A stretch of 46,415 bases of DNA from Candidatus Iainarchaeum sp. (GTDB lineage: Archaea; Iainarchaeota; Iainarchaeia; JAADDC01), in NCBI GenBank assembly GCA_015521515.1, contig WANZ01000027.1:1-46415 (forward strand), in the 5' to 3' direction. This document shows positions 4,415-14,708 of this stretch, one piece after another. A program made the position numbers and the translations under genes. Within the stretch, counting starts at the first letter, position 1, and each line of letters opens with the position of its first letter. The notes beneath the pieces are model-generated. The model made no database searches. It had not been told where the DNA came from and saw nothing but the letters and a program-made list of their open reading frames with translations.

Positions 4415-4520
4415 CCCTCACACCTCGCTAACTATCAAAACAAACCCCTTTTTAAGTGTTACCTTTCCACCCACACTAACAAAAACCCTTGTCTCTTCAA
4501 TCAGTTAGATAGCTGTATAT

Positions 4521-4594
4521 GGGCCCGTAGCTCAGCCAGGTAGAGCACCCGGCTCTTAACCGGGGTGTCGGGGGTTCGAATCCCCCCGGGCCCG
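4521..4594 (+). tRNA. tRNA-Lys (CUU)
   Basis: A 74-nt cloverleaf with a 7-bp acceptor (GGGCCCG/CGGGCCC), a GCTC/GAGC D-stem, an anticodon stem CCCGG/CCGGG with loop CTCTTAA (anticodon CUU), a T-stem GGGGG/CCCCC with loop TTCGAAT, and discriminator G. No intron. CCA is not encoded. It marks the left border of the surface-fibre island. Confidence 0.97.
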
Positions 4595-4630
4595 TAACCC
4601 ATAAAATATAGCTCTACCATCTATTTTCTC

Positions 4631-5911
4631 ATGCGATTTCAAACAGACATAATAACAGTACTCCTTGTCCTCTCCTTTTCGTTAGTGGTGCTGTATCAGC
4701 TTTATCTTGCCCTATCTTCCTATCTATCCGAGCAAACAGAAGAGCTTGATATATACGTAAAGAAGTTTTCCGAACAAACCAAACAATATCTTATCCCTCT
4801 CGGAGGAAGCTATAGCATAAGAAGGGATACAAACACTCTGCTATACGTAGATATAATCATAGAAAACGTGGGAACACTCCCTCTTTACTATAGATACCCC
4901 ATACAAGGAGTCATTCTATACAGGGAAGGAAATGCTACAAAGGTGATGGAGGCGGAGTTTGCGGTGGATAATGCGTCCTCAGCCTTTCTGCCTAAGATAA
5001 ACTATAGATTGTACACTATAGTTCCCATACCTGATGAAAACATTCTTCCATATAGAGTAACTGTTTTCATAAACGGTGTGGAGCTTTGGACGGATCTAAA
5101 GCCTATTAGCTGGCCTCTAGGAGAGATATACTTTTGTTATACATGCGGACAGTGCCAAGCCACACTCGATTCATACGCTGGGCCTGACAGAAGAGTTCTT
5201 ATGTTTACAGATATTGTAATAGATAGAGATCCGTGCATTAACCTCTGGAAGGATTACAACGGAATAACGTTAGATTGTATGCTTCATACACTGAGGGGTT
5301 CCGGGTCTGAAACAACTTTCCTCTTTGACGGGGGATCGAATATATCCATAGAAAGATGCAGGATAAGGAATGTGGACACCTCCTTCCTTGTGAACAATCT
5401 TACTAATGTGGTTATTACATCTGTTGAGAACAATGAGGTGAACCATGTTATGTATATTTCTGACCCCTTCACCTTCAGCTTCTCACTTTCCATTGGAGAT
5501 ATAGTATATGGTGATAGGAAGATGTATCTCTTCCGCCCGTCTTCCCTCTCCTCCATATCACCTTTCCTCCCCCTTTCCATCTGGGTAAAGGATTATACAG
5601 GAGGAGTTTCCATAGATGCGGGAGGATCCACAATGGAGAGGGTATATCCTATTATAGCAATCCTTGAATCTTCAAATGTAGGAATTTCTAACTTCTATCT
5701 TGAAACTAATGATCCTTACGGTGTTATAATAAGAAATTCCTCCAATGTATCTATCTCCTCAGCTTCTCTTCGTTTAAATACCTCAACTACAGGTATATAC
5801 TCGCTAAACAGCGATTATACACTATCCGACATTAACATAGTAAGTACATCCCCCCTTGACATGCACATTATCGACTCAAACCTTTTGTTGGGTAATGTGA
5901 CAATCCGATAA
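4631..5911 (+). CDS. Membrane-anchored right-handed beta-helix surface protein, 426 aa
   Basis: An N-terminal hydrophobic helix (residues about 8-30, ITVLLVLSFSLVVLYQLYL) anchors a predicted extracellular region. Residues 35-170 look like an immunoglobulin-like or CARDB-like beta domain (DIIIENVGTLPLYYRYP). From about 215 onward there are pectate-lyase/NosD-type rungs rich in Asn and Ser (GSNISIERCRIRNV, NLTNVVITSVENN, NSSNVSISSASL). A cysteine cluster (FCYTCGQCQ) lies between the two. The ATG lies about 26 bp downstream of ATAAAATAT, suggesting a leaderless message. It opens the island and precedes the tail-fibre-like gene by 31 bp. Likely role: adhesin or stalk base on the cell surface. Confidence 0.65.
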   Translation: MRFQTDIITVLLVLSFSLVVLYQLYLALSSYLSEQTEELDIYVKKFSEQTKQYLIPLGGSYSIRRDTNTLLYVDIIIENVGTLPLYYRYPIQGVILYREGNATKVMEAEFAVDNASSAFLPKINYRLYTIVPIPDENILPYRVTVFINGVELWTDLKPISWPLGEIYFCYTCGQCQATLDSYAGPDRRVLMFTDIVIDRDPCINLWKDYNGITLDCMLHTLRGSGSETTFLFDGGSNISIERCRIRNVDTSFLVNNLTNVVITSVENNEVNHVMYISDPFTFSFSLSIGDIVYGDRKMYLFRPSSLSSISPFLPLSIWVKDYTGGVSIDAGGSTMERVYPIIAILESSNVGISNFYLETNDPYGVIIRNSSNVSISSASLRLNTSTTGIYSLNSDYTLSDINIVSTSPLDMHIIDSNLLLGNVTIR

Positions 5912-5942
5912 CATTATAATCCACAAAAACATCAATAGAACG

Positions 5943-8612
5943 ATGCGACACATCCTCGCACTCCTCTTACTACCTATAGCAATGGCAGCAGGTGTTCTTA
6001 TAGAGAACAGGGACCTTAACGTTGTAAACGGTAGTATTTATGTAAACGGTGGTAGTGTTTTCATAAACAATATAGAGGTTCTAAAACGATCCGACATATT
6101 CTCCAACGCAGGAACGTCAGACGCCAGTGTAACAGGAACATATAGCACTTTAGACATCCAACTGAGGGAAAATGTAGTAGGATCCTACGAATTTAACGAA
6201 TTCCAGAATTACAGTATGATGTCCACCCTTACCATTAACACCAGACCAGATGATACAACAACTACCAACATAAACGAGGCAACTGACGCCATCTACATCC
6301 AATCTACCCAACCATTTACCCACGTAGGTATTGTTACAAACAAGGACTATGTGGTGTTCTGGAATAACACAACTAACCAGCATGCTAATATCTCTGCCAA
6401 TACAGTGTTAGCAGAAAGGTTAGAAGATATGTCAAACTCCTCCTATTATATAGACCCTGCAGGCACTTCCGTCCTAGGTCCGATGACCGTAGGATTTCCA
6501 ACAGCCTGGGACTCTCTCCATTTGAAGAGCTCTCTCCTAATAGATACTAATGTACATTCTACAAGAACGTCAGAGGGTATAAGGATGAACGTTTCCTCTA
6601 TTCCAAACAAATTCTTTGATGTAGCTTACGACGAAGGTTTTGGGTCCTTTACGGTTAGATCTTGGGCAAATACTGGTACTCCAATTCCTCTCTATGTGGG
6701 AGCAGGCGGTGCATACTTCTGGCTGGATAGTACCTCTGGAAATATAGGTGTGGGGAATCTATCACCTTCTTATAAGTTACATGTCTCTGGAGACATAGGA
6801 GCAAACAATGTGTATGCAACCTCCTTTGTGGAGGGAGGTACGCCCCTCTCAAGCAAGTATGTCCCCCAGACAAGAACCATATCAGTTTTGTCACCTCTAA
6901 CAGGTGGAGGAGCACTTTCCTCAGATATAACCATAGGTTTAAGTGTTGGGAGAGGCTTGAAGGTAAATGCAGGATCCTTAGAGATGAATATAACCTCCAC
7001 CCTTTCTTGTCCATCAGGGCAGGCACTTACAGCAGTAAACCCATCTGACGGTACCATTTCATGTACAGTGGTGGATACCACACCCTCCAACGATATTACA
7101 GGCTCCGGCACCACGAACTACATACCCTACTTTACATCCCCCTCCACAGTATCAGCCTCTAACCTATACTGGGATAACACGAACAAACGCCTCGGTATAA
7201 ACATTTCTACGCCCCAGTATACTCTTGATGTAAATGGTACTACTTATGTTAGGGGAGATCTAGTATCTACGGGCCTCATATATACCACTAGAGATGCTGG
7301 CTATCTTCCTCCCACCTATCTGAGAACCTGGGGTATAGACAAATCCGATGGGCATTTGTACATAGAGTGGGGCAACGACTCTGCAGACTACCTCTATATA
7401 ACAGATCATTGGAGGTACCAGAGCCCTGTTTATATTAAGGCAGGCCCGGTTTACATCCAACCCTCTAACACAAGTACCCTTTCCGTTCTTGCAAACAAGG
7501 TAGGTATAAACAACACAAACCCAACAGCCAACCTTGAGGTAAACGGAAGCCTTAAAGTTACAGACGCCTCCGGAAATGAAAGGTTTGGTGCGTATCAGTC
7601 TGGGGAAGTGAGAGTAGGATTCGATTTTAAGATGGCCAGAACTGTTGTGGGAGATTATAATTGGAAAAGAGCCCTTGTACCCTATCCCACAAAATTGATA
7701 ATAAACTATGCAGGAGACTTCAACGCCGGTGTGGAAGTTCACGGACCAGGTATTTCAGCCTCCCAGTTCAAGGACAGAGACAACACCTCTTTCTATGTAG
7801 ACCCTGCAGGCACTTCCGTCCTTTCTAATCTGCGTCTAACCACAAAAACAAACTGCTCAAAACTATACACAGACGCTTCAGGTAATGTTTTGTGTGGAGT
7901 TGACAATGGTATAACCACCATAACTTCCACAGATCCTATCTCTGTATCTGTTACGGGAACCTCTGCATCCATCTCTCTCAAGTACAACCCAACATATTTC
8001 TCTACAGATATAGATGGAAACCTTGTACTTACCAATCAATACGCTACAGGATCGGCCTTTGATGGTAGGTTTGTAAACGAGGGTCAATCTGCAGGAGGAG
8101 ACCTATCTGGTACGTATCCCAACCCCACAGTTGCAAAAATACAGGGAAGACCTGTATCCCCTACCGCTCCGTCTGCAGGTCAAGCTTTGGTGTGGAATGG
8201 AACCCAATACGTTCCAACTACAGTAGATACAAACCCCACGGACGATGCCCTTGGATCCGGAACCACTGGAAAGATACCAATCTGGGTTGGTACGCGTACC
8301 CTAGGAGATTCAGCACTTTCAGAAACTACCACAGAGGTGGTATCTTCAAAGGTGGTAAAGGCCCCGCGGTATAATGATAGTGATAACACCTCCTTCTACT
8401 TAGATCCTTCAAATGTGTCAGAGGTGAACGAACTAAATGCCAATGTTGTGAGGGCTAGTATTCTTCAATCTGGAGATCTTGTCTTCAAGAACGGTTTTAG
8501 GTTTGTTGAGGATGGGAATAGTATTGTGCTATTAAACCAAAGGGGAGAACCTGTTCTTAGAATAGATGATAAAGGAAACTTGTGGATAAGGGGAGAAATT
8601 AGAAGGGGGTGA
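5943..8612 (+). CDS. Secreted trimeric tail-fibre-like adhesin, 889 aa
   Basis: A Sec-type signal peptide (residues 1-16, LALLLLPIAMAAG) is followed by a mosaic of motifs typical of phage tail fibres and bacterial trimeric surface fibres. The NTSFY-DP-AGTSVL motif occurs three times (near residues 165, 612 and 815). The G(I/V)G...P...L.V.G head-type motif occurs three times (near 267, 418 and 520; e.g. SPSYKLHVSGDI). There is an LTGGGALSSDITIGLS segment (near 320) and a GGDLSGTYPNPTVAKIQG segment (near 718). No C-terminal anchor is seen. The family usually folds as an extended homotrimer, so a long fibre is inferred. The resemblance to bacterial and phage fibres suggests lateral transfer. Downstream genes follow within 4-10 bp, implying one operon. 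Confidence 0.7.
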   Translation: MRHILALLLLPIAMAAGVLIENRDLNVVNGSIYVNGGSVFINNIEVLKRSDIFSNAGTSDASVTGTYSTLDIQLRENVVGSYEFNEFQNYSMMSTLTINTRPDDTTTTNINEATDAIYIQSTQPFTHVGIVTNKDYVVFWNNTTNQHANISANTVLAERLEDMSNSSYYIDPAGTSVLGPMTVGFPTAWDSLHLKSSLLIDTNVHSTRTSEGIRMNVSSIPNKFFDVAYDEGFGSFTVRSWANTGTPIPLYVGAGGAYFWLDSTSGNIGVGNLSPSYKLHVSGDIGANNVYATSFVEGGTPLSSKYVPQTRTISVLSPLTGGGALSSDITIGLSVGRGLKVNAGSLEMNITSTLSCPSGQALTAVNPSDGTISCTVVDTTPSNDITGSGTTNYIPYFTSPSTVSASNLYWDNTNKRLGINISTPQYTLDVNGTTYVRGDLVSTGLIYTTRDAGYLPPTYLRTWGIDKSDGHLYIEWGNDSADYLYITDHWRYQSPVYIKAGPVYIQPSNTSTLSVLANKVGINNTNPTANLEVNGSLKVTDASGNERFGAYQSGEVRVGFDFKMARTVVGDYNWKRALVPYPTKLIINYAGDFNAGVEVHGPGISASQFKDRDNTSFYVDPAGTSVLSNLRLTTKTNCSKLYTDASGNVLCGVDNGITTITSTDPISVSVTGTSASISLKYNPTYFSTDIDGNLVLTNQYATGSAFDGRFVNEGQSAGGDLSGTYPNPTVAKIQGRPVSPTAPSAGQALVWNGTQYVPTTVDTNPTDDALGSGTTGKIPIWVGTRTLGDSALSETTTEVVSSKVVKAPRYNDSDNTSFYLDPSNVSEVNELNANVVRASILQSGDLVFKNGFRFVEDGNSIVLLNQRGEPVLRIDDKGNLWIRGEIRRG

Positions 8613-8616
8613 TAGG

Positions 8617-8856
8617 GTGTTGAAGAGACTAAAACAAATGTTGGTTAACTGGTTGCTTTCCGATGTTACTGTGGAGGAATTAAGGGTAATAAACCTTAGG
8701 ATTGGCCAGCATAGTGTAAGGATCTATCCGGACCACATAGATGTTAACGGCGGTATTCTGATATATGCAAATTACATCGATGGTAGGGGAACAGCTGTCA
8801 TAAAGAATATCAACGGCTTGCAGGTACCGGTAGGCACTAATAAGTATGTGCCCTAA
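8617..8856 (+). CDS. Small fibre-associated protein, 79 aa
   Basis: The N-terminus is a basic amphipathic helix (MLKRLKQMLVNWLL) followed by a short beta-rich domain (LRIGQHSVRIYPDHIDVNGG). The start is GTG, 4 bp after the stop of the fibre gene. Residues 1-45 clearly resemble the N-terminus of the protein at 12780-13673 (MLRWLKRRFAEWLL ... KIGENTVYIKPDSI), so the two are paralogous modules. There is no signal peptide in the usual sense. Possibly a connector that joins fibre parts to the envelope; this is an inference from context. Confidence 0.6.
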   Translation: MLKRLKQMLVNWLLSDVTVEELRVINLRIGQHSVRIYPDHIDVNGGILIYANYIDGRGTAVIKNINGLQVPVGTNKYVP

Positions 8857-8865
8857 TAATATACG

Positions 8866-9753
8866 ATGCCACTGCCAGGATCCATCTGGGTAGAAGGAAC
8901 AAGACTGAAATACGTAGATGCTAATGGAAACATTCGTTCCCAGGAAGGCGAATTAGTGTCTTCATCCTCTTCTGGCCAGCCAGGCTCCCTCTGGATAGAC
9001 GGAAACTACCTGTACTATATTGATCAATACGGAGCCATAAGAAGGCTGCCAACCGTCTCTCTTGGCACTTCATCTGGCCAACCAGGATCTCTTTGGTTGG
9101 AAGGGAACTACATAAAGTTTGTTACAGGCACAGGAAACCTTAGAGAATGGCACACAGATACTCACTCCGACTGGGCCAACCACTCCAACTGGTCTGACTG
9201 GCCAAACTCCCACTCAGACTCCCACTCAGACTCTCACTCAGATTCACATGCAAACTGGTCTGACTGGAACGATACCCACTCCGACACTCACTATAATTGG
9301 TCCGACTATAGCGACTTTTTACATTGGGATTGGACAGACCATGGAGATACACCTCATGGAGATCATAGTGATCATGCTGACTTTCATACGGACTCTCACG
9401 GAGATTGGTCAGACTATAGCGATTCGTCACAACATTTAGATTGGATCCATAATGATGCTATACACACAGATTGGGGCGATCATAGTAATACAATACATGC
9501 TGATAGTCCGCACTACGATCATACTAACCACAGTGACCAGCCACATGCTAATGCAACCCCTCATGATGATGTACCACATTCAAATCATTCGGACCATCTA
9601 GATTCACATTATGACTGGTCTGACTGGCCAAACTCCCACTCAGACTCCCACTCAGACTCTCACTCAGATTCACATGCAAACTGGTCTGACTGGAACGATA
9701 CACACTCTGACACATCTTCACATAACGACGTGCACAACGATCAGCCCATATAA
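8866..9753 (+). CDS. His/Trp/Tyr-X-Asp/Asn repeat protein, candidate radical SAM substrate, 295 aa
   Basis: Residues 1-95 hold three copies of a roughly 22-residue beta module starting PGS(I/L)W (PGSIWVEGTRLKYVD, PGSLWIDGNYLYYID, PGSLWLEGNYIKFV). Residues 97-295 are low complexity but highly patterned: almost entirely H-, W- or Y-X-D/N triads such as HSD, WSD, WPN, WND, YSD, HTD, HGD and HND. An 88-bp DNA segment is duplicated exactly (9188-9275 and 9614-9701). There is no signal peptide or Cys. It lies directly upstream of a SPASM radical SAM gene whose own tail has H-X-D repeats. Triads of the form aromatic/His-X-Asp/Asn/Ser are the substrate pattern of cyclophane-forming (triceptide) enzymes, so I infer a cross-linked repeat fibre. 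Metal binding by His/Asp is the alternative. Confidence 0.7.
   Translation: MPLPGSIWVEGTRLKYVDANGNIRSQEGELVSSSSSGQPGSLWIDGNYLYYIDQYGAIRRLPTVSLGTSSGQPGSLWLEGNYIKFVTGTGNLREWHTDTHSDWANHSNWSDWPNSHSDSHSDSHSDSHANWSDWNDTHSDTHYNWSDYSDFLHWDWTDHGDTPHGDHSDHADFHTDSHGDWSDYSDSSQHLDWIHNDAIHTDWGDHSNTIHADSPHYDHTNHSDQPHANATPHDDVPHSNHSDHLDSHYDWSDWPNSHSDSHSDSHSDSHANWSDWNDTHSDTSSHNDVHNDQPI
9188..9275 (+). repeat. 88-bp direct repeat, copy 1
   Basis: Base-for-base identical to 9614-9701 by eye, in the same reading frame. It encodes the WSDWPN-(SHSD)n-HANWSDWND block. Identity at synonymous positions shows a recent duplication or ongoing repeat homogenisation. Confidence 0.9.
9614..9701 (+). repeat. 88-bp direct repeat, copy 2
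   Basis: Second exact copy of 9188-9275, 426 bp downstream and in frame. The sequence between the two copies encodes similar but more diverged triads. Confidence 0.9.
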
Positions 9754-9774
9754 ACATTTCATAGGAGGTGTTGA

Positions 9775-11076
9775 ATGGTGACAGTACTCATAAAACCTAC
9801 CCTGGCATGCAACCTTTCTTGTGCATACTGTTATCAGAACAGATTGTTGAGGGAAAAGGACTATGATCTGGAATGGATTTTGAATACCATTGAAGAAACG
9901 GCAAAATTGCCGGAATATAGTAATGGATATGGAGGGGTGTTCACTTTACACGGAGGAGAGCCTCTAACCCTTCCTAAAGAGGATATAGAGGCCATATTTA
10001 AGAAAATTGTAGAGGTAGGACAGCGCCCTTCAATACAAACAAACGGTGTAAACATAGACGATGACATCATAGAGATTTTCAAAAAGTATAGAGTTAGTGT
10101 GGGAGTGAGCATAGACGGACCAGAAGAATTGAATGTTCTAAGAGCTCCACCATCCCAAACAAGAAAGGTACTGGAGAATCTTCAAAGATTGGTGGAGGAA
10201 AAGATACCAACCAGTGTTATTATTGTGGTACATAAGTTTAACGCCGGTGATGATGAGCGCTTTGAAAAACTAAAGAAGTTCATACACTGGCTTTCAGGAG
10301 AGCTAAGGATAACAGGAAGATTAAATCCTCTTGGCTACCCTGCGCCAAAGCAGTACTTCCTTGAGCCAGGTAGGTTAGCATATGTATACAGAGAGCTTGC
10401 AAAGTTTATGCTGGATACCGGCTATCAATGGTCTCCCTTCAGAGATATCATGAACGCCCTCCTGGGAAGACAAGAAGTGGTATGTGTTTTTAGACCGTGT
10501 GATCCGTTTAACACAGCTGCTGCCCATGTTATAAAGGGAGATAGGATGGTTACAAACTGCCAAAGACATGTACCTCTGCTAAGAACACAGGAGAGAATGT
10601 ATATCAGGGAAGAAGTATTGTATAATACACCATTTGAGTATGGGGGATGTAGGGGATGTAAGTACTTCCCTATCTGCTATGGTGGATGTTCCGCAACCAC
10701 CATAAACGGTGACTGGAGAAACAGGGATGCAAACTGTCCTGCTTGGAAGGCAGTTTTCAGCTACTATGACAACGTTCTAAGGTTTATGGGTATAGAACCG
10801 GCCTATGTAAAAGCTACACTTCCCTTTGAGACAAGCCGTTCATTAAGCACTAACCATACCGACGGAATAGAGCACGTTGATGGAGGTTTAAGACACCTAG
10901 ATGGAATAGCGGAGGGATCCTGCGGGGGTGGACACAACGATGGTGTGGAGCATACAGATGGAAGTGTAAGACACCTAGACAGTGACAATCCTCCGAGGGG
11001 AGGTTCCTGCTTTGGAGGCAATCATACTGATGGTGTAGAACACATAGATGGAAGCTTAAGGCACCTTGACGGGTGA
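9775..11076 (+). CDS. Radical SAM/SPASM peptide-modifying enzyme with H-x-D repeat tail, 433 aa
   Basis: The radical SAM cluster motif is CNLSCAYC (C12, C16, C19), with the GGEP SAM-binding motif near residue 61 and a TIM-barrel core to about 215. The SPASM domain supplies auxiliary-cluster cysteines (TNC, then GGCRGCKYFPICYGGC, i.e. CxxCx5CxxxC, then NC) at about 265-320. After about residue 350 a non-catalytic tail carries three copies of HxDGxEHxDGxxRHxD (e.g. HTDGVEHIDGSLRHLDG) separated by GSC-GG linkers. SPASM enzymes of this size usually modify ribosomal peptides. The tail echoes the H-X-D triads of the adjacent repeat protein. Start: a strong GGAGGTG site 6-7 nt upstream of the ATG. 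Same operon as its presumed substrate. Confidence 0.88.
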   Translation: MVTVLIKPTLACNLSCAYCYQNRLLREKDYDLEWILNTIEETAKLPEYSNGYGGVFTLHGGEPLTLPKEDIEAIFKKIVEVGQRPSIQTNGVNIDDDIIEIFKKYRVSVGVSIDGPEELNVLRAPPSQTRKVLENLQRLVEEKIPTSVIIVVHKFNAGDDERFEKLKKFIHWLSGELRITGRLNPLGYPAPKQYFLEPGRLAYVYRELAKFMLDTGYQWSPFRDIMNALLGRQEVVCVFRPCDPFNTAAAHVIKGDRMVTNCQRHVPLLRTQERMYIREEVLYNTPFEYGGCRGCKYFPICYGGCSATTINGDWRNRDANCPAWKAVFSYYDNVLRFMGIEPAYVKATLPFETSRSLSTNHTDGIEHVDGGLRHLDGIAEGSCGGGHNDGVEHTDGSVRHLDSDNPPRGGSCFGGNHTDGVEHIDGSLRHLDG

Positions 11077-11082
11077 ATATGT

Positions 11083-11973
11083 ATGTTTAAGAGCAAAACA
11101 CCGGTAATAAAACCAGACTTTGAGATAAAACACTTTACAAGGATTGTGTGGAGAAGACCCGAGTACAAGGCAGTATGGGAACCAAGGTTAGGTAGAATCT
11201 CTCGTATGGCAAACAGAGCAGAATACGAAATGGTAAAGAGAGGTTATAGAAGGGCAGCTACATGGCATGTGGATGTAAACAATTTTGCAGAGTTCATAGA
11301 GCAAATTCAAAGGGATGGGCTATACTTCTTCCCCATAGCAAAAAGCGCATACTATCAAGGCTTTTCTCACTATCATGTTCCTCCCAAACCAGGGGAGCCG
11401 TTCTTCTGGTATGGGGCTCTTGTGAGGGATCCAAAGGACGGAGAAAGATTTAGAGAGGCATCCAAGAGAAAGGATGGACACATAGAGATAGGTGAGATGT
11501 TGGGTTATCCAAAGTGTTGTGTAGAATTCTTCATGGATACATGGAGCCAGGGGTTCTACGATCCCCTATGGCAGGCAGCAGAAAATGATGGAGACCCTGT
11601 CCTTGAGAAGGACAGATGGACATTAGAAGAAGATAAATATGTAATATACATTCCGGATCCCTACCCTGAAGCCATCCAAGAGTTAAGATATTTTGGCATA
11701 CGTATGACGACTCATTTACCCCACTCCCATAGATGTAAGGGAACAAAGAGGGTGGGGAAGAAGTGGAGGAAGGTGATGGAGGATATAGACCCAGAAGCCT
11801 TTGAGTGGTTGGAAGAGATACTCACCTCTCCCATAGTGTGGGATAGTTACCATGGGGTGGCTCAGGTTCACACACCCTGGTTCGTGGGACTAGCCCATAC
11901 CTACCCATATCTTGATAAAAGAAGGGTGATAGTGCTGAATAGTGAAAGAATACCGTGGGATCTCAACCTTTAG
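11083..11973 (+). CDS. GYPxCC-motif (DUF483-like) protein, 296 aa
   Basis: The hallmark is IGEMLGYPKCCVEFF near residues 137-151, which I recall from the archaeal DUF483 family; a second His/Cys cluster (THLPHSHRCKG) lies near 220. It has no signal peptide or membrane segment and many Trp and Tyr. It starts 6 bp after the radical SAM gene, so it is very probably a partner in the same pathway: a second tailoring or substrate-recognition protein is plausible, but no activity is established that I can cite. The 3' end overlaps the opposite-strand gene at 11963 by 11 bp. Confidence 0.6.
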   Translation: MFKSKTPVIKPDFEIKHFTRIVWRRPEYKAVWEPRLGRISRMANRAEYEMVKRGYRRAATWHVDVNNFAEFIEQIQRDGLYFFPIAKSAYYQGFSHYHVPPKPGEPFFWYGALVRDPKDGERFREASKRKDGHIEIGEMLGYPKCCVEFFMDTWSQGFYDPLWQAAENDGDPVLEKDRWTLEEDKYVIYIPDPYPEAIQELRYFGIRMTTHLPHSHRCKGTKRVGKKWRKVMEDIDPEAFEWLEEILTSPIVWDSYHGVAQVHTPWFVGLAHTYPYLDKRRVIVLNSERIPWDLNL

Positions 11974-12340
11974 GACATTTGCCCGAAGAAACATCTATTA
12001 CCTTTGGCGAATCCCTTGCAGTTACCGTTATACAGAGATAATAATTGTTTTCCACCACGGTAAACCTGTATACAGGGCTACCATCTGTCCAGGCAGTCAA
12101 ATAGGTAGCCCTCACATCGGTAAAGGGAACCTTGTTGAAAGCAGTCTTTACAGCTTCTTCACAGCTGATAAACGACGGAGATCCTGGAAACCCTTCCGGA
12201 CAAGCGGTTCTTATGATGTCTTCAGAAAGGATGGGAATATTCTTCTCTGAAGAGGTGGAACCCCTTTGGGAGAAGAGGACAATACCCATAATGATGGATA
12301 CGAGGATCACACCACCGATGATGAGGTGGAGCCTGTCCAT
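11963..12340 (-). CDS. Membrane-anchored small extracytoplasmic protein, 125 aa
   Basis: The N-terminal hydrophobic helix (residues 5-24, HLIIGGVILVSIIMGIVLFS) anchors a small domain with four cysteines (TACPEG, ISCEEA, YLCITV, GKCPKG), consistent with one or two disulfides outside the cell. The repeating beta pattern and size (about 95 residues) suggest a cystatin/NTF2-like fold such as a PepSY-type domain, but I cannot assign it. A TATA-like CTTAAAC (12362-12369, minus strand) lies about 25 bp upstream of the ATG. It is encoded against the direction of the island genes. Confidence 0.55.
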   Translation of the reverse strand: MDRLHLIIGGVILVSIIMGIVLFSQRGSTSSEKNIPILSEDIIRTACPEGFPGSPSFISCEEAVKTAFNKVPFTDVRATYLTAWTDGSPVYRFTVVENNYYLCITVTARDSPKVIDVSSGKCPKG

Positions 12341-12375
12341 ATTTTTAACATATTCTCATGTGTTTAAGTGTTTGT

Positions 12376-12747
12376 ATGGTAAAAGGAGATGAAGGTATTA
12401 GATGGTTTTTCTATATTTTGGAGATAACAACAGGTAAGAAGTATGATATGAAACCCTTTCTGAACCTTCTTGAGGAGTTGGAGAAGATCGTAGGGGATAT
12501 TGCAGGTGTAATAATGTATTATGTGCTTAGTTTTTATGTAAACAGACAAGATCCTGAAAAGGATCTTGAGTATGTATATGAGAGAGTCTCCAAGGCTATA
12601 AAAGGCGGATTGGTGGAACGTTTGAAGGAGTGTGGGGAGTTTGGAGATAGAGAGAAGTGGGGACGGGCTATGGGGGAGGCAATCCTATCATACACGGGAG
12701 AAGATCCTTGTGAATTATTAACAAAGCTCTACAATGGTTTAGGGTAA
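12376..12747 (+). CDS. Hypothetical cytoplasmic protein, 123 aa
   Basis: Predicted to be mostly helical and without a membrane anchor (LNLLEELEKIVGDIAG, DLEYVYERVSKAIKGG). I do not recognise the family. The ATG giving MVKGDE at 12376 is preferred to the in-frame ATG at 12358 because a TTTTTAACAT box (12341-12350) lies about 29 bp upstream. The promoter is interlocked with that of the divergent gene at 11963-12340. Sits between the radical SAM block and the second fibre-like gene. Confidence 0.55.
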   Translation: MVKGDEGIRWFFYILEITTGKKYDMKPFLNLLEELEKIVGDIAGVIMYYVLSFYVNRQDPEKDLEYVYERVSKAIKGGLVERLKECGEFGDREKWGRAMGEAILSYTGEDPCELLTKLYNGLG

Positions 12748-12779
12748 GAATTATATAGAAGGTTAGGTTATTCTTAACG

Positions 12780-13673
12780 ATGCTAAGATGGCTTAAGCGG
12801 AGGTTTGCAGAGTGGTTGTTGGAAGATCTGCTAAAGGAAGGCCTGAAGATAGGTGAAAACACTGTTTATATAAAGCCGGATAGTATAGTTTTTCAACCTT
12901 TGACGTCGGATCCGGCTCTTGAGCCAGGAAAACTGTGGTACAGACAGGATATCGATGAATGGAGATATAGCCCCGATGGAAGCCAAACGAAGACACTGAC
13001 CCAGAACGTAACCACTGAAAGTGCACCGTGTTTCTCTCCAGCCAGCTATTGGATATCTACCCCAACAAATACGAACTATACACCCACTATAAGCACCAAC
13101 ATATGCTACAAAGGTTATGACAGAAAACTTAGGATAGCTATAAATAAGTCCCTAGCCTATGGAATGGAAGATCTTACGGTTAGATTGTATAGCCAGCGTA
13201 TACCACTAAATGATATAAATAGCTGGAATCTTCCAAATAGCTTAAGAGTTACAATAGAAAGCCCAAGCAGTATTTCCTACACAAATGCAGGTGTGTTAGA
13301 AACAGCTAATGGGCTGTCAATAGGGTTCGCTGTTATATACTATGATAGTTCTAATAGTGTTGTCAGAATAGATGCTTATGCTATTATAGATCTTATGCAG
13401 AACTCGGACATACCATTTATTTTAGATCCTGTATCCAACACAAGATCCCAGGCCAATACTTATGACAGAACCACTAAACTAGCGGGATGGTCACCTGCTA
13501 CCGATAGTGCAAACTGGAGCACAACTACAGATATAGATGGGAATTTCTCTTTCGCGTCTATGGTAGATACAACGGTTCCAGCTAGCACGGTAGATATAGT
13601 GTTCTACTACCATTGGTATTCAAGTCAATCAAACGGAAGTGGTAATGTTGATGTAAAAATAATTGTTGGGTGA
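12780..13673 (+). CDS. Fibre- or base-plate-like surface protein, 297 aa
   Basis: Residues 1-42 resemble the 79-aa protein at 8617 (amphipathic helix MLRWLKRRFAEWLL, then KIGENTVYIKPDSIVF). Residues 47-72 resemble the PGS-W module of the 8866 protein (LEPGKLWYRQDIDEWRYSPD). So two separate upstream genes are represented here as one fused polypeptide. The remaining 220 residues are Ser/Thr/Asn-rich beta sequence with two Cys (APCFS, NICYK), like a receptor-binding or lectin-type tip. The ATG is about 28 bp downstream of TTATATAG. No signal peptide; the RR in the helix is not followed by a Tat-type hydrophobic region. Confidence 0.6.
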   Translation: MLRWLKRRFAEWLLEDLLKEGLKIGENTVYIKPDSIVFQPLTSDPALEPGKLWYRQDIDEWRYSPDGSQTKTLTQNVTTESAPCFSPASYWISTPTNTNYTPTISTNICYKGYDRKLRIAINKSLAYGMEDLTVRLYSQRIPLNDINSWNLPNSLRVTIESPSSISYTNAGVLETANGLSIGFAVIYYDSSNSVVRIDAYAIIDLMQNSDIPFILDPVSNTRSQANTYDRTTKLAGWSPATDSANWSTTTDIDGNFSFASMVDTTVPASTVDIVFYYHWYSSQSNGSGNVDVKIIVG

Positions 13674-13682
13674 AATGTTGTT

Positions 13683-14321
13683 GTGAGGAGATATATTGAG
13701 GAGTTAAGGGGATTGGTGCTGAAAGGAGTATTTATGTATATCTTAGTGTACGTTGTGTTGGTAGCCTCCTTTACTCTGGTGGGAAAGGGATTGTACTTCC
13801 TTGGTGTGAGGGATGTGATGGCCTTTTACCTTGACGCTGTGGCAAAGCTGGCACTCATTCTTGTGATACCACCTTTTCTGCTTATGTTTTATGGGTGGTT
13901 GAGAGATGCCCTCACAAAGGAGGAATCACGTACACTAAAGAAGTATATCATATATTCCTTTGTTGCGGCCATCCTTTCTGTAATTGTATCTTTCTATCTA
14001 TCAGGACAGGTAGTGTTCTACCTTGCGAGAACACTATCCTCCCTGGTGGGGGCAGAGCTATTGATTACCCCAACGGATGTGATCGGATTCCTAACCTATT
14101 TTACTATTATCTTTTACATTCTCTTTCACCTCCCCCTTATACTCAAGCTTCTTATAAGGTATAAGCTCCTACCAAGGGAATCTATAGAGAAAAACCGGCC
14201 GATTATCTACACATTTATCTTTATATTCTCAGCCATATTAAGTCCTGGTGATCTTCTTGTAGCAGATGTCATAATAACCCTTGTTGCTATCCTTCTCATA
14301 GAGGGAGCAATAAGGATATAA
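13683..14321 (+). CDS. tatC: TatC, twin-arginine translocase subunit, 212 aa
   Basis: Six hydrophobic segments and the TatC end signature (ENRP equivalent: IEKNRPIIYTFIFIFSAILSPGD, recognised as the family pattern of a basic residue, a long helix, then a TP/SPGD turn) in a protein at the short end of the family's usual range of about 220-260 aa. TatC is the membrane receptor for folded precursors that carry RR-type signals. The start is GTG, 10 bp after the stop of the fibre-like gene. tatA follows after 22 bp with its own TATA box overlapping the tatC stop. The location inside a surface-protein island suggests that some cargo is encoded nearby. Confidence 0.85.
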   Translation: MRRYIEELRGLVLKGVFMYILVYVVLVASFTLVGKGLYFLGVRDVMAFYLDAVAKLALILVIPPFLLMFYGWLRDALTKEESRTLKKYIIYSFVAAILSVIVSFYLSGQVVFYLARTLSSLVGAELLITPTDVIGFLTYFTIIFYILFHLPLILKLLIRYKLLPRESIEKNRPIIYTFIFIFSAILSPGDLLVADVIITLVAILLIEGAIRI

Positions 14322-14343
14322 AGGAGCTCTTCCATCTTCTAAC

Positions 14344-14523
14344 ATGCTAAACATAGGAATAACAGAAATCATCCTAATAATCATAGTGTTGGTGGTGCTC
14401 TTCTTCCCCTACAAGGCAAAGGACTTCATAAGAAATATAGGTGTTGCCATAAGAGCGTTTCAGGAGGGTGCCAGAGAGGTTGAGAAGGAGCTAAGAGGAG
14501 GGGAAAAGAAGCGCAAAAGATAA
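14344..14523 (+). CDS. tatA: TatA, twin-arginine translocase pore subunit, 59 aa
   Basis: Short N-terminal hydrophobic helix (IGITEIILIIIVLVVLFF), a hinge (PYKAKDF), then a basic amphipathic helix (IRNIGVAIRAFQEGAREVE): the TatA/TatE layout with the conserved Glu in the membrane segment and LGKAIREF-like motif. The usual Phe-Gly at the hinge is Phe-Phe-Pro here. A TATA box (GATATAAAGG, 14314-14323) sits about 26 bp upstream of the ATG and overlaps the end of tatC, so tatA can also be transcribed alone as a leaderless mRNA. Confidence 0.85.
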   Translation: MLNIGITEIILIIIVLVVLFFPYKAKDFIRNIGVAIRAFQEGAREVEKELRGGEKKRKR

Positions 14524-14547
14524 AAACCACCCCACCCTTAATGTGCT

Positions 14548-14706
14548 GTGAACATAGAGAAGAGGAACTTCCTGAAGGCTATCCTGACAGGAGGGGCTAT
14601 GATAGCTCTTCTCTTTCTGGGCATTGATATAAAGAAAAATACCTTGGAGTCTTCCGAGGTGGAGGTGAGGGTGGAGGGAGATAGTTTGGTGATAGATAGG
14701 AAATAA
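14548..14706 (+). CDS. Small protein with Tat-like (Lys-Arg) leader, 52 aa
   Basis: The sequence begins MNIEKRNFLKAILTGGAMIA, then LLFLG: a KRxFLK motif, a moderately hydrophobic segment, then a charged tail of about 27 residues. This fits a twin-arginine signal in which the first Arg is replaced by Lys, a variant known from a few genuine Tat substrates. The GTG start is supported by a TATA box (GATAAAAACC, 14519-14528) centred about 25 bp upstream, overlapping the tatA stop. It sits directly after tatC and tatA. It may be a membrane-tethered Tat substrate or a TatB-like helper; it ends 2 bp before the convergent cdc48 stop. Confidence 0.6.
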   Translation: MNIEKRNFLKAILTGGAMIALLFLGIDIKKNTLESSEVEVRVEGDSLVIDRK

Positions 14707-14708
14707 CC

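Follow-up and report, generated by a model that had tools for sequence, protein, structure and literature searches.

Radical S-adenosylmethionine (SAM) enzymes with a SPASM domain are known to link the ring of an aromatic residue (Trp, Phe, Tyr, or His) at position i to the β-carbon of residue i+2 (Asn, Asp, Arg, Ser, or Ala) (PMC11002830). The products, triceptides, are small peptides. In His-Xaa-Ser systems, a His-x-X repeat protein (HxsA) is encoded beside the radical SAM maturases HxsB and HxsC. A third system, the "rSAM module" of Thermus phages, consists of genes for a radical SAM protein, a DUF483 protein, and an unknown protein, and the report on it suggests possible DNA modification (PMC11437467). 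Here, a 46,415-nucleotide stretch (the window) of Candidatus Iainarchaeum sp., contig WANZ01000027.1, was analyzed for a gene unit that a preliminary description had taken to be a cross-linked repeat-peptide system. The unit consists of the following features.

8617..8856, plus strand: 79-residue protein of the unit, GTG start (homolog in archaeal genome G005)
8866..9753, plus strand: triad-repeat protein, 295 residues, proposed substrate (composition, phage and archaeal homologs, N-terminal alignment)
9764..9771, plus strand: ribosome-binding site AGGAGGTG, 5' of the radical SAM gene (sequence)
9775..11076, plus strand: SPASM radical SAM enzyme, 433 residues, proposed triad cross-linking enzyme (Pfam, PHROG, Cys pattern, structure model, tree)
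10846..11073, plus strand: HxDG triad tail of the enzyme, nine HxD (family tail comparison)
11083..11973, plus strand: DUF483-like GYPKCC protein, 296 residues, proposed accessory factor (weak Pfam match, locus association)

The four genes (79, 295, 433, and 296 residues) are codirectional across window positions 8617 to 11973. As first described, the three larger open reading frames (ORFs) are closely spaced (21 bp from the repeat gene to the enzyme gene and 6 bp from there to the DUF483-like gene), and a strong ribosome-binding site, AGGAGGTG, lies directly 5' of the ATG of the radical SAM gene, the second of the three. The unit resembles triceptide systems (XncB, OscB, MscB, YxdB, HaaB, and YhhB) in having an aromatic residue at i, an acceptor at i+2, a free middle residue, and a SPASM/twitch-type enzyme encoded next to the substrate motif. 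It shares with His-Xaa-Ser systems a His-x-X repeat protein beside a radical SAM gene; those systems, unlike this one, have Ser rather than Asp/Asn at the third position and several HxsC-like enzymes per locus. The repeat protein matched no Hxs model in an NCBIfam search, and HxsB and HxsC were not among the 25 best NCBIfam models for the enzyme. The three genes are homologous to the Thermus phage module in identical order, and the unit belongs with that module.

The aromatic-x-Asp/Asn triad rule

The C-terminal domain of the repeat protein (residues 95 to 295) contains 52 [HWYF]-x-[DN] triads, compared to 17.2 ± 2.9 expected (maximum of 28) from 5,000 composition-preserving shuffles of the 201-residue domain. 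The initial statement that the last 200 residues are nearly all triads was thus sound as to the excess and slightly overstated as to coverage (156 of 201 residues). Asp or Asn stood at +2 after 37 of 37 His, 13 of 16 Trp, and 2 of 5 Tyr residues. Offset 2 accounted for the excess of Asp/Asn (87%); offsets 1, 3, and 4 gave only 5 to 17%, and the 42% at offset 5 reflects adjacent triads.

The same rule was found in 48 pooled triad domains of relatives, where Asp/Asn occupied the +2 position after 97.3% of His, 63% of Trp, 50% of Phe, and 47% of Tyr residues, versus 2 to 14% after other residues; because these domains were delimited by triad density, the absolute percentages are somewhat inflated, and the nonaromatic residues of the same domains served as the control. 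The middle residue was free, triad-to-triad spacing was mostly 3 to 9 residues, and the domains were nearly free of Cys. Between the phages phiMa and Cumys, triad positions 1 and 3 differed only by His to Tyr and Asn to Asp. Many related repeat proteins are 200 to 1300 residues long, with varied N-terminal parts fused to the triad domain (for example, a Laminin_G_3 domain at locus L172). The N-terminal part of the archaeal protein (about residues 1 to 94) contains three PGSxWxEG units, and its gene carries a 100-bp in-frame duplication whose copies are 98% identical.

Iron-bearing HxH needles exist in known phage tail fibers, and the triads could likewise form a metal-binding fiber with His and Asp as ligands, the radical SAM gene serving something else. 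Metal binding would be possible for the His residues at position 1 (97%) and would suit the tail-gene context described below. This explanation is disfavored because it fails to predict Trp or Phe at position 1, which the triceptide rule does; His is replaced by Trp, Tyr, and Phe, and 13 of the 52 window triads begin with Trp. The strict link to a single radical SAM clade, and the triads in the tail of the enzyme itself, also argue against metal binding, which we consider improbable.

Association of triad proteins with one SPASM enzyme clade

The enzyme matched Pfam PF04055 (75 bits) and PHROG 1802. Its assignment to the SPASM group was borne out by a seven-Cys pattern (C242..G257xxxxC262, C292xxC295x5C301x3C305, and C321) that is invariant or nearly so across the family. 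The C-terminal ~75 residues of the enzyme carry HxDG triads: of 48 family enzymes, 32 had at least two HxD in the tail, versus 2 of 91 other enzymes. In the structure model, this tail is unplaced, with a predicted local distance difference test score (pLDDT) below 50; it may serve as a substrate, as a docking element, or as an inhibitor. At locus L200 (10403-13318), a tandem pair of family radical SAM genes follows one triad protein, and the tail of the first contains 14 HxD, the tail of the second none.

A tblastn search of phages found the three-gene unit in conserved order in phiMa and Cumys, with 37 to 40% (enzyme) and 36 to 38% (DUF483) identity to the archaeal proteins. The locus is rearranged in phiLo, where three large HxD proteins are encoded on the opposite strand, a few kilobases away from the enzyme gene. 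The whole unit is repeated in G005, an archaeal genome of the same family and another genus, with 61 to 67% identity for the enzyme and DUF483 proteins. A viral-contig scan with the archaeal enzyme as a single-protein query gave no confirmed match; alignment-based scans succeeded, recovering the unit in dozens of viral contigs and in some bacterial contigs (Chengkuizengella axinellae, Acidobacteriota, Fulvivirga marina, Frankia nepalensis, and Anaerolineales). The layout had initially been presented as without a known archaeal example; far from being an archaeal speciality, it is widespread in tailed viruses, and its Thermus phage form had already been published (PMC11437467).

A triad ORF lay immediately 5' of the enzyme gene with a median gap of 9 bp (34 loci), and an automatic triad-ORF filter was passed by 22 of 28 nonredundant family loci. 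Among the six loci that failed it, the enzyme was at or near a contig end in L024, L026, and L088, and L080 is a short phiLo-like contig. At L091 (Frankia nepalensis, 5759-9850), another of the six, the large upstream protein ends in HxD triads. The association was also approached from the repeats, by two DNA-pattern scans of viral contigs for four HxD units, blind to the enzyme. Triad ORFs were accepted at thresholds chosen by hand: a minimum of 12 triads, 6 or more of them different, and no more than 40% Lys, Arg, Leu, or Pro at the middle place. This gave 30 nonduplicate complex triad ORFs, and a family enzyme was encoded in the stretch for 23 of them. Five of the remaining seven (L192, L204, L401, and two in L250) bordered on a stretch or contig end; the pattern hits at L266 and L376 were set aside on inspection as low-complexity artifacts. 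Tandem HKD/HRD ORFs, of which there were many, did not pass the complexity filter and were dropped. Homologous repeat proteins consistently lacking a radical SAM gene, which the preliminary description had named as evidence against its proposal, were thus not what was found.

In a maximum-likelihood tree, the family enzymes formed one clade (100/99), within which the two archaeal enzymes were paired (100/99); the nearest relative of the pair was from viral contig L079 (97/90). The direction of transfer between virus and archaeon is not settled by the tree. That an unrelated radical SAM gene came by chance to adjoin a low-complexity protein in one archaeon could be imagined, given that low-complexity repeat proteins arise easily and that the repeat gene carries a recent duplication. 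The same gene order was kept in another archaeal genus and in many viruses, which together with the association data refutes this idea, leaving a negligible probability.

Two other archaeal loci were observed. In L021 (G005:C33, 1080-2586, minus strand), a second, unrelated SPASM gene lies 58 bp after an ORF of ~81 residues with about ten Tyr-Ser-Asp repeats at its C terminus, a candidate small Tyr-x-Asp cyclophane peptide. In L092 (Woesearchaeota WJJS01000014, 9995-12272), a DynA/sulfatase-maturase-type radical SAM gene is followed by two short overlapping ORFs with HxD/YxD motifs at their ends.

The proposed cross-linking reaction and its alternatives

The following mechanism is proposed: (i) the SPASM enzyme would act on the aromatic-x-Asp/Asn triads of the neighboring repeat protein; (ii) the ring of the aromatic residue at i (His in most triads; Trp, Tyr, or Phe in others) would be joined to the β-carbon of residue i+2; (iii) each triad would become a three-residue ring with loss of 2 Da, giving up to 52 rings in the window protein; (iv) the PGSxWxEG units would probably serve as a recognition and/or attachment module; (v) the DUF483-like protein would be an accessory factor; and (vi) the product would be a stiff, protease-resistant rod, forming a tail part in viruses and probably, in the archaeon, one component of a cell-surface fiber encoded by this gene cluster. 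The triad rule and the gene association support the earlier proposal that the repeat protein is the substrate of a peptide-modifying SPASM enzyme with triceptide-type triads, and action of the enzyme on the triads is very probable. By analogy to triceptides, an i,i+2 cyclophane is quite likely to be the product, and the two steps taken together are still likely. A structural fiber is a role that we favor with somewhat more reserve. The broadest statement, that tailed viruses and an archaeon build rods from polypeptides with tens of enzyme-made aromatic-to-Asp/Asn three-residue rings, has about an even chance of being correct.

Several points weigh against this mechanism. The best NCBIfam cyclophane model for the enzyme, AmcB, gave 81.5 bits against a cut-off of 425, and the enzyme was far below the cut-off of every named cyclophane family, YhhB, GrrM/OscB, FxsB, and XyeB among them. 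The best matches in the PDB, by both sequence profile and fold, were the anaerobic sulfatase-maturating enzyme (anSME) first and then the ribosomally synthesized and posttranslationally modified peptide (RiPP) enzyme ChlB (4k39 and 9gm3); the radical SAM and SPASM architecture is shared with these enzymes, whereas identity is ~20% and the substrates are different. The closeness of the model to these two enzymes speaks for the mechanism, and the nature of the top fold match, a formylglycine-forming enzyme, against it. About half of the Tyr and Phe residues and one third of the Trp residues in the domains lack Asp/Asn at +2. At L090 (Fulvivirga marina, 6814-9948), a locus that failed the filter, HIK/HVK (HxK) replaces HxD in the large upstream protein, which suggests that triad position 3 may change to Lys. 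No obvious signal peptide was found in the archaeal repeat protein. Triceptides are small and come from short precursors with removable leaders; here, tens of triads lie in a large tail or surface protein (295 residues in the window), and no protease gene was recognized beside the window's unit. Finally, the reaction and the role of the product are read from sequence, and the chemistry is unproven.

Some of these points would equally suit an enzyme that modifies the triads in another way (epimerization, dehydrogenation, or another bond) and makes no three-residue ring: the chemistry of SPASM enzymes is varied, anSME has the closest fold among solved structures, and no NCBIfam cyclophane model was matched at its cut-off. 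The joint requirement for an aromatic residue at i and Asp/Asn at i+2, with the middle residue free, is the main argument against such a modification, because it indicates that both side chains would take part and is hard to explain otherwise. Thioethers are excluded as the main product because the domains are nearly Cys-free. A different modification is therefore unlikely, although less so than the metal-binding fiber considered above.

The DNA modification suggested for the Thermus phage module finds some support in cyanobacterial homologs of the enzyme and DUF483 protein near deazapurine DNA-modification genes, as given in that report, whose consulted passages mention neither the HxD repeats nor a substrate role nor archaeal members (PMC11437467). 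It would leave the triad proteins and the enzyme-tail triads without a role, and the relatives of the enzyme are peptide-modifying SPASM enzymes; we regard it as very improbable. A literature search on HxD repeats with radical SAM enzymes, phage cyclophanes, and DUF483 returned only that report as relevant. None linking HxD repeats to radical SAM enzymes was found in a search that mostly did not cover subscription papers, where an unseen report is possible.

Cross-linking of the triads thus appears to follow the substrate rule of a triceptide system. The system is nevertheless not classified as one, because the enzyme falls into none of the named families, its proposed substrate is a large protein, and the bond itself is still a proposal; a DUF483 partner is a further difference.

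Accessory genes, genomic setting, and implications

The third ORF contains the Cys pair originally noted, as a GYPxCC motif (GYPKCC), and is a weak relative of Pfam DUF483 (PF04467), with 22.4 bits against a cut-off of 25 over residues 132 to 157 only. It is homologous to a Cumys protein annotated as having a DUF483 domain, and its structure model (pLDDT of 88) had no PDB fold match at an E value of ≤0.001. A DUF483-like gene was present in 26 of 28 family loci versus 0 of 125 other radical SAM loci; 8 of the 28 came from a DUF483 query or were known beforehand, so that the first count is partly dependent and the second is independent. Several viral DUF483-like members have a methyltransferase-like C-terminal domain, and others form a fusion protein with the radical SAM enzyme (L023, L025, L027-L030, and L032; L086, L088, and L091).

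In G025, an archaeon of the same phylum, locus L407 (G025:C44, 6939-12772) encodes an HAS/HSS repeat protein (HxsA4-like at 44 bits, cut-off of 55), three HxsC-like and one PapB-like radical SAM proteins, and a DUF483-like GYPECC protein. This His-Xaa-Ser example with a DUF483-like gene suggests that DUF483-like proteins may be general partners of His-x-X repeat maturation.

The archaeal unit lies in an island (window positions 4520 to 14708) flanked by tRNA-Lys(CTT) and cdc48. Two further features of the island are as follows.

4520..4595, plus strand: tRNA-Lys(CTT), island edge (empty site in congener G003)
5943..8612, plus strand: 889-residue probable fiber component; apparent signal peptide, NxxYYxDPxxTS repeats of tail-fiber type (ORF list, inspection)

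The island is filled in genomes G000 and G005 and empty in G003, where tRNA-Lys adjoins cdc48; in G006, cdc48 has TatC and two different radical SAM genes as neighbors. The site is possibly a hot spot for modified surface proteins. In G005, a fiber-like gene lies upstream of the unit, and TatC and Cdc48 are encoded downstream. The 889-residue protein, whose gene ends 4 bp before the 79-residue gene, has a homolog of 1209 residues at the matching place in G005. It had no Pfam match and no phage tblastn match, and its assignment, made by inspection, is as a probable fiber component. The 79-residue protein has a 69% identical homolog immediately 5' of the repeat gene in G005, and its C-terminal PVGTxxxxP weakly resembles Cumys gene 14 at the corresponding position; by this conserved placement, its gene is assigned to the unit. 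These two genes, the enzyme-tail HxDG triads, and the 100-bp duplication were missed in the preliminary description. Elsewhere in the window (12780-13673), the first 36 residues of a 297-residue protein resemble the start of the 79-residue protein, perhaps an anchor or assembly motif of surface proteins.

Among viruses, the unit follows baseplate and tail-collar-fiber genes in Cumys, and the triad gene lies three genes after the tape-measure gene in L079. Around the archaeal unit, no capsid, terminase, or other viral genes that would mark a provirus were recognized among the part of the ORFs scanned, and the identified window neighbors are cellular (NFACT, TatC, Cdc48, MCM, Rad50, and reverse gyrase), but the island that holds the unit adjoins a tRNA gene and is missing in congener G003. 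A surface fiber is the natural guess for the product in the archaeon. The archaeal assembly is small (587 kb, 91% completeness) and, with reverse gyrase encoded in the window, most likely comes from a hyperthermophile. Of the surface fiber in hot water first envisaged, the fiber keeps some, weaker support; a role specific to heat is unlikely, given the family members in Chengkuizengella axinellae, Acidobacteriota, Frankia, and numerous viral contigs of different origin.

The laboratory host Thermus thermophilus HB8 supports growth of phiMa and Cumys, so that their virions are open to mass spectrometry and the idea to a direct test. If it is true, RiPP-type radical chemistry would extend from small peptides and metabolites to large structural parts of virions and cell surfaces, and three genes that are common in viruses and recorded as being of unknown function would gain one. 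If the enzyme staples each triplet, these fibers would be covalently stiffened in a way not described before, and naturally poly-stapled polypeptides would provide stiff, heat- and protease-resistant rods.

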